Of a stretch of DNA of 41,773 nt, positions 26,833 to 28,136 are shown one piece after another (position 1 is the first letter of the stretch; each line of letters begins with the position of its first letter). Origin of the DNA: Candidatus Nomurabacteria bacterium (GTDB lineage Bacteria; Patescibacteriota; Minisyncoccia; Phycocordibacterales; UBA9973); the NCBI GenBank assembly GCA_943359365.1, contig CALRHG010000003.1, forward strand, positions 1 to 41,773, read 5' to 3'. The notes below the pieces were generated by a model that had not been told where the DNA came from, did no database searches, and saw only the letters and a list, made by a program, of their open reading frames with translations. The position numbers were made by a program, and so were the translations under genes.

Positions 26833-27375
26833 TCAATAATTCTTGTAGTAATCCGATATTCGGTAAAACACAGAACCATTGAGGTCCGTTGTCCAGGTAA
26901 TCTTGCCGCAGTCCAAGTTTTCATCTCCGTCAAAAATTTTGCTTAAAGCGCGACCGATTGTATCCGGAACGCCTCGAGCATGAATATTTACCCCGCGATA
27001 GACAGTTCCTCCGTCCCCGCAAACAACTTGGTCAAGATCGTTATCAAACCCATAGACAGTTCCCCCGGGAGGTTTGGGGGCGGAAGGCAGAAATTTTCCC
27101 AGACGAGCGGGGTTCGTCACCAGCATGTCAATGTCGGGGTTACCGCCTACCCCGAAGTCCGTTTCGGGCCACCATTCGGAGATGTTTTCCTCATCCGCGA
27201 GTAGCAGAAAAGCCTTTTCCATCTCCTTAAAGTCAGCGGCAATTTTTGCAGTTTTGACTTTTTCCCGGGCGCTGTTCAAAGAAGCCATTACCACAGAAGC
27301 CAAAAGGCTGATGATAGCGACGACGACTAGAAGTTCTATGAGAGTGAATCCTCGCCTTGATTTATGATCAAACAT
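26833..27375 (-). CDS. Type IV pilin-like protein
   Basis: RRGFTLIELLVVVAIISLLASVVMASLNSARE. Confidence 0.85.
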   Translation of the reverse strand: MFDHKSRRGFTLIELLVVVAIISLLASVVMASLNSAREKVKTAKIAADFKEMEKAFLLLADEENISEWWPETDFGVGGNPDIDMLVTNPARLGKFLPSAPKPPGGTVYGFDNDLDQVVCGDGGTVYRGVNIHARGVPDTIGRALSKIFDGDENLDCGKITWTTDLNGSVFYRISDYYKNY

Positions 27376-27381
27376 AAAGTA

Positions 27382-27387
27382 ATTATA
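27382..27387 (-). promoter_or_regulatory. -10 TATAAT, 6 nt upstream of pilin-like ATG
   Basis: TATAAT-tacttt-ATG on minus strand. Confidence 0.55.
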
Positions 27388-27414
27388 CTATATCGTAGAC
27401 TTACAAACAGAGCC

Positions 27415-28089
27415 TTAGACTCTGTCTGGAAGGATATCTTCTTCCGTAAGAGAAGTTTTTCCTCTTTCTTCTCTGATAATTGAAATAATTTCATCACAGT
27501 GTTTTTTAAAATTCTTACTACCGCCAAAAATTTCTAAGATTCTTCCCCCTTCTTCTTTTGACACAACTTTAAAATTATTATTCTCATATTCACAGTCACT
27601 GGCGAAAATAAGATGCATTTTATTTTTTGGAATATCATGAACACCATAATTTTTATTCGCATACCCAAGAATTTTGTTAAAATAACCTTCATTATTTAAA
27701 TGATGCGATTTGAAAGGCCCTTGAAAAAGCGACCCTGAACGCTCATTTTTTACATTAAAGTAATAAGTGTACCCGCCTTGCAGTTTTTGCATAAATTTAG
27801 CTATCCCACCATCCACTAATTGTTTCAACAAGAAATGAAAATGATTTGGGTTTAAGCAAAGAGCAACAATAGCGACCAATGGATCTTTGGAAAACAGAGC
27901 CTTAGACTCTGATTTTAGTTGAGAATTTCTAAAATCTCTTATGCTTCCTACTCCCTCCATTTGGTTAAAATCGCTGATACTTTCAATAAAACGATCTACG
28001 TCTTTTTTATCGTTAAAAATATCCCGCTTATCTACTCCGCGATTGTAGATATGATAATATTCCCCTGTTATAATTGGCTGTTTTCTCAT
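27415..28089 (-). CDS. REP-associated tyrosine transposase (Y1_Tnp / RAYT)
   Basis: GEYYHIYNRGVDKRDIF, HUH motif NPNHFHFLL, GGYTYYFN catalytic Tyr region. Confidence 0.88.
   Translation of the reverse strand: MRKQPIITGEYYHIYNRGVDKRDIFNDKKDVDRFIESISDFNQMEGVGSIRDFRNSQLKSESKALFSKDPLVAIVALCLNPNHFHFLLKQLVDGGIAKFMQKLQGGYTYYFNVKNERSGSLFQGPFKSHHLNNEGYFNKILGYANKNYGVHDIPKNKMHLIFASDCEYENNNFKVVSKEEGGRILEIFGGSKNFKKHCDEIISIIREERGKTSLTEEDILPDRV
27894..27911. repeat. Internal in-frame copy of the RAYT repeat
   Basis: acagagccttagactctg inside the transposase ORF, encoding SESKAL. Confidence 0.85.
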
Positions 28090-28136
28090 ACGATAAGTAT
28101 AACATATTCCGAACAGAGTCTAAGGCTCTGTAAATT

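Follow-up and report, generated by a model that had tools for sequence, protein, structure and literature searches.

A translated inner palindrome changes together with the end palindromes of a RAYT-like transposase gene

The element and its palindromes

The stretch analysed here (the window, 41,773 nucleotides) is contig C3 of a 664-kb draft genome of Candidatus Nomurabacteria comprising 46 contigs. It contains an element with a RAYT-like transposase gene, whose end palindromes are accompanied by a third, translated copy within the coding sequence. The palindrome ACAGAGTCTAAGGCTCTG(T) is found at 27407-27425, 27894-27911 and 28113-28131, around and within the transposase open reading frame (ORF). 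The copy at 27407-27425 reads acagagccttagactctgt, its reverse complement stands at 28113-28131, and the inner copy comprises 18 nt. AGAGTCTAAGGCTCT has three exact sites in the window. Allowing up to 3 mismatches on both strands gives 6 matches, whereas 0.79 would be expected; 100 shuffled sequences all stay below 6. The element has the following features:

27415..28089, minus strand: transposase ORF of RAYT-like Y1/HUH single-strand type, 224 aa (Pfam match, predicted structure and Foldseek)
28113..28131, no strand assigned: upstream palindrome U, reading acagagtctaaggctctgt on the plus strand (sequence comparison)
27894..27911, no strand assigned: internal palindrome I at site A, coding for SESKAL, residues 60-65 (sequence comparison)
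27407..27425, no strand assigned: downstream palindrome D, providing the stop codon TAA at 27417-27415 (sequence comparison)
28096..28101, minus strand: putative -10 box TATACT between U and the start codon (sequence; -10-like boxes in relatives)
27835..27843, minus strand: HUH motif H83-F-H85 (alignment)
27661..27663, minus strand: probable catalytic Tyr143 (from its invariance and its spacing from HUH)

The first-pass annotation had listed the same three copies and placed the stop codon of the transposase within the left one; on re-check, all coordinates are correct and the TAA does lie in the 27407-27425 copy.

Position and joint change of the inner copy

Relatives were gathered from public genomes and by whole-genome searches of the window's family and phylum. 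The resulting set includes 149 distinct elements, all from candidate phyla radiation (CPR)/Patescibacteria except one from a gammaproteobacterial symbiont, and matching statistics were calculated on 148 of them. The transposase family is common: of 147 genomes in the family to which the window belongs, 98 contain a match at E ≤ 1e-20. The nearest relatives of the window transposase come from Candidatus Nomurabacteria. No relatives were found in the viral contigs and plasmids searched. Re-translation of the close elements revealed stops ahead of the terminal one in L038, L042 and L134 only.

Among 98 close relatives, 80 have matching U and D, and 70 of these 80 also carry the inner copy. An inner copy, which had been regarded in the first-pass annotation as an unusual insertion, is thus a rule of the family and no one-off event. 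The palindromes themselves differ widely between elements (AGATAGCGCC..., CAGTGCCTCAGGCACTG, ACTTGGGAGCTCAGCTCCCAAGT, GTCGGGTGTCCAACACCCGA, TGTAGACGTCCGACGTCTACA, TGACAGGGACTTAGTCCCTGTCA and others). A paralogue on contig C11 of the same genome (L009) carries palindromes at the same three places with another sequence, AGTGCCTAAGGCACT. In the Moranbacteria locus L045, the internal (ORF nt 182-228) and downstream (699-749) copies are dimers, each a perfect palindrome of about 46-50 nt. The same architecture occurs in the gammaproteobacterial symbiont Thiodubiliella (L046), with inner-to-flank matches of 23 and 25 nt; this single locus is the basis for the spread beyond CPR.

Inner-copy matches of at least 15 fall into ORF nt 125-225 (site A, codon ~60) in 84 elements and into nt 400-500 (site B, codon ~150) in 20 elements; the only match elsewhere is weak and lies between the two sites. 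Eight elements (L085, L086, L154, L156, L160, L161, L163 and L169) have inner copies at both sites. The palindrome centre at site A holds one codon phase in 40 elements and another in a second group of 36, with 4 exceptions (n=80), and at site B a single phase is found in 19 of 20. These fixed positions and phases indicate a few ancestral in-frame positions that have been inherited since. In the AlphaFold model of the window protein, the internal loop with the lowest confidence is that of site A, just ahead of the HUH strand, and site B is located after the helix bearing the probable catalytic Tyr. At site A, most distances from U to I are in the range of 205-249 nt (median 220); at site B, the median distance from I to D is 208 nt.

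The inner copy matches the flanks of its own element. The best inner-to-own-flank matches, summed over all 148 elements, amount to 2636, the maximum of 10,000 permutations being 1655. A score of at least 17 is reached in 88 of 148 elements, as compared with 1.4% of non-own pairs. Among 44 disjoint nearest pairs, own matching exceeded cross matching in 35, equalled it in 5 and was worse in 4; protein identity among nearest disjoint pairs with inner copies is at most 86%. Four-fold silent sites in the twelve closest pairs are 39-77% different, so the palindrome match is no leftover similarity. On a tree of the window clade built without the palindrome-coded columns, the inner palindrome type requires at least 21 changes. 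In this clade, the inner and upstream types agree in 26 of 29 elements, the inner and downstream types in 26 of 31. The position, phase, matching, repeated joint turnover and shared imperfections of the inner copy are thus observed features of these elements. The imperfections concern inner stems that are not fully paired, and in 25 of 40 such stems the arms are identical to those of at least one flank. Since selection for pairing alone would leave this identity unaccounted for, it points to copying.

The encoded peptide varies with the flanking DNA (SESKAL, IAPKAL, VPKAL, IEVKPL, LGSSAPKL and others). SESKAL is therefore not conserved independently of the DNA sequence; such conservation had been named at first pass as a ground for refutation. 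Protein-level selection for a SESKAL-like peptide, with the DNA match being secondary, could draw on residues that recur within a clade (KAL, LG..A.KL), but the peptide changes together with non-coding flanking DNA, which makes such selection extremely improbable. A reading of SESKAL as a protein motif is ruled out by the same covariation.

Copying, control and alternative explanations

With moderate confidence, the inner palindrome is best explained as a third cognate site of the transposase, which is probably kept identical to the end copies through palindrome exchange mediated by the enzyme. In this scheme, the element would be a RAYT-like gene for a single-stranded DNA transposase, with three or, in some cases, four palindromes recognised by its product. 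These would comprise one over the promoter, one at the stop codon and one translated within the gene, in a surface loop. The translated copy would be a true third site for the enzyme and no protein motif. Palindrome-for-palindrome copying would keep the copies within an element alike; the transposase would most likely catalyse it through hairpin cleavage and strand transfer, with in-frame outcomes alone surviving. We infer that the transposase binds the inner copy and performs the copying.

The main rival considers the inner copy a neutral passenger, i.e., an in-frame palindrome in a tolerant loop that is repeatedly overwritten from the flanks by enzyme-dependent exchange and brings no benefit. 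It would have originated from few insertion events in the ancestral gene (site A in two phases, site B). Palindromes of this kind are indeed found in other coding sequences. In atpD of the window genome (L225, C13:7006-7039) there is an in-frame inverted pair of related palindromes, agcgccttaggctct-ccgg-agagcctaaggcgct; the same loop has a short unrelated sequence and no palindrome pair in most relatives. In atpD of G089 (L236), this loop is occupied by another palindrome pair, whose type is also seen around the window genome's site B element. The window palindrome itself recurs exactly at C1:8008-8022 (L223); there it is in frame with a conserved ORF that has no Pfam match, in the variable N-terminal part. 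Such palindromes thus enter coding sequences at tolerant loops, which gives a natural origin for the inner copy. The low model confidence at site A also fits a passenger, as do the relative orientation of U, I and D, which is not constant among relatives, and degraded inner copies scattered among elements. On the other hand, the inner copy is kept in most close elements with flanks, and no copies occur in other parts of the ORF beyond the one weak match. It is also as tightly coupled to the ends as the ends are to each other. The 78 elements with all three copies include 44 with identical copies, and where a single copy deviates, this is U ten times and D and I seven times each; this comparison is biased, as its elements were chosen for a detectable inner copy. 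On balance, a benefit-free passenger seems rather unlikely. A tolerated insertion, one of the options of the first-pass annotation, may account for the origin of the inner copy and does not by itself account for its long-term concerted evolution.

Besides the bias just mentioned, several observations weigh against a third cognate site that is homogenised with the ends. The shared imperfections could instead stem from sequence-specific recognition of mismatched bases. Roughly 12% of the close relatives whose flanks are intact have lost the inner copy or have a degraded one, and it is missing from 29 of 38 distant relatives with flanks; being degraded in several elements and absent from most distant relatives, it is dispensable for some elements. 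The outer stem foot (CC..GG in the window clade) is kept better in D than in I, and such a weaker foot might allow binding of the inner copy without cleavage.

Benefits of a homogenised third site could lie in regulation. Of 85 elements, 72 carry a -10-like box after U and ahead of the start codon, whereas 24 would be expected; the box mostly follows the centre of U by 11-31 nt. Because of this placement, the -35 region falls in the U palindrome. With the upstream copy overlying the -35 region, a regulatory role of the palindromes is possible. A putative but likely use would be negative autogenous control, with U on the promoter and I early in the coding sequence, or else the supply of a third hairpin to the transposition complex. 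A further proposal is that of a self-rewriting gene: the enzyme would write each change of specificity into its coding copy, and the third site would serve autogenous control or element integrity. This extension is tentative and less likely than not.

Control could also act on the message, if an mRNA hairpin in the coding region attenuated translation or stability of the transposase transcript. In the site A clades the inner copy occurs early in the transcript, and the stems are mostly well paired. However, site B copies are late in the gene, and a hairpin would not require identity to the flanking DNA. Stem mismatches on the sense strand show no G.U bias (21 G.T vs 35 A.C), and this make-up does not suggest selection acting on the sense RNA. 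The mRNA hairpin is thus improbable.

To our knowledge, it is an open question by what means RAYT-like enzymes and their palindromes remain matched as the two diversify. In the present elements, three or four copies under differing constraints (promoter, stop codon, reading frame) turn over jointly. The elements are therefore a natural record of specificity switching and offer a direct test of whether a transposase homogenises its own sites. They are also a case in which a DNA target sequence dictates, in a conserved manner, part of a protein's amino-acid sequence.

Class membership, known systems and the pil locus

The window protein matches Y1_Tnp (PF01797) with an E value of 1.2e-6, above the cut-off. 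The motifs named in the first-pass annotation are confirmed: NPNHFHF occupies residues 80-86 with the HUH histidines H83/H85, and Tyr143, invariant in the alignment, lies 60 residues downstream of the first HUH His. RAYTs are characterised by a Y1_Tnp domain with an HUH motif and a single catalytic Tyr about 58-67 aa downstream (spacing range from PMC6006769), and the window protein, with its probable catalytic Tyr, has this arrangement. The AlphaFold model has a pLDDT of 81.5. Its top Foldseek match in PDB is 4er8, the E. coli RAYT with a repetitive extragenic palindrome (REP) hairpin (E 5.4e-4, TM 0.43/0.56), i.e., a hairpin-bound TnpA-REP structure. The flanking palindromes of the window element are inverted, as in RAYTs.

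Other RAYT features are missing. The protein scored 25.3 bits against the NCBIfam REP_Tyr_transpos equivalog, below the cut-off of 80, and no conserved GTAG tag was found in the U or D contexts of the two main clades. A high-copy dispersed REP family was considered and rejected: there are 5 exact copies in the window genome, 3 of them inside the element, and a related palindrome class has 0-7 copies per genome. Owing to these three differences, the element is RAYT-like in fold and flanks and is classed as a RAYT/TIRYT-like variant, not a standard RAYT. The RAYT label of the first-pass annotation consequently stands for the HUH/Y1 protein, the inverted palindromic flanks and the translated third copy, and fails at the NCBIfam cut-off, the GTAG tag and high-copy REPs. 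Absence of the repeat from the rest of the genome had been named there as a counter-indication; this is nearly the case, with two more exact copies beyond the element (C1:8008 and C14:10195) in the 664 kb. Solo palindrome copies are few in the genomes examined. A REPIN-like inverted pair of a related palindrome is located at an ORF end in L226 (C40:1159-1196).

RAYT/TnpA-REP transposases and REPtrons (E. coli rayT, 4er8; PMC2817692, PMC8266576) share with the window family the HUH and Y1 fold and palindromes on both sides, with DNA hairpins as the presumed substrate. Unlike them, the window family, represented by a protein of 224 aa, lacks the GTAG tag and has low-copy palindromes private to each element. 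E. coli rayT has flanking REPs and no translated internal copy (best internal match 9), which shows that RAYTs do not generally have an inner copy. TIRYT genes, as described in the section of PMC3733652 consulted, likewise encode Y1 transposases with private, partly self-complementary flanking repeats that possibly overlap gene ends; the repeats described there are flanking alone, with none within the gene, unlike those of the window family. IS200/IS605 TnpA proteins (IS608, ISDra2) have the same Y1 HUH chemistry and subterminal hairpins, but are shorter, and their structural match to the window protein is weaker. Rickettsia palindromic elements and intragenic REPs are likewise in-frame in genes and translated; in the passages of PMC3733652 consulted on them they are unlinked to a cognate transposase gene, and no concerted evolution with flanks is described. 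No description of an internal palindrome copy in RAYT genes was found in the RAYT/REP literature, which was searched partially, with preprints and most subscription journals outside the search.

At window positions 26833-28131, the RAYT gene and a pilin gene stand between pilB and a response-regulator gene. No clean RAYT-only empty site in the pil operon was obtained among the relatives examined, because these lack both the RAYT and the adjoining pilin. In most of them, pilB is directly followed by the response regulator. In the window, the U palindrome lies 5 nt from the PilB stop codon.
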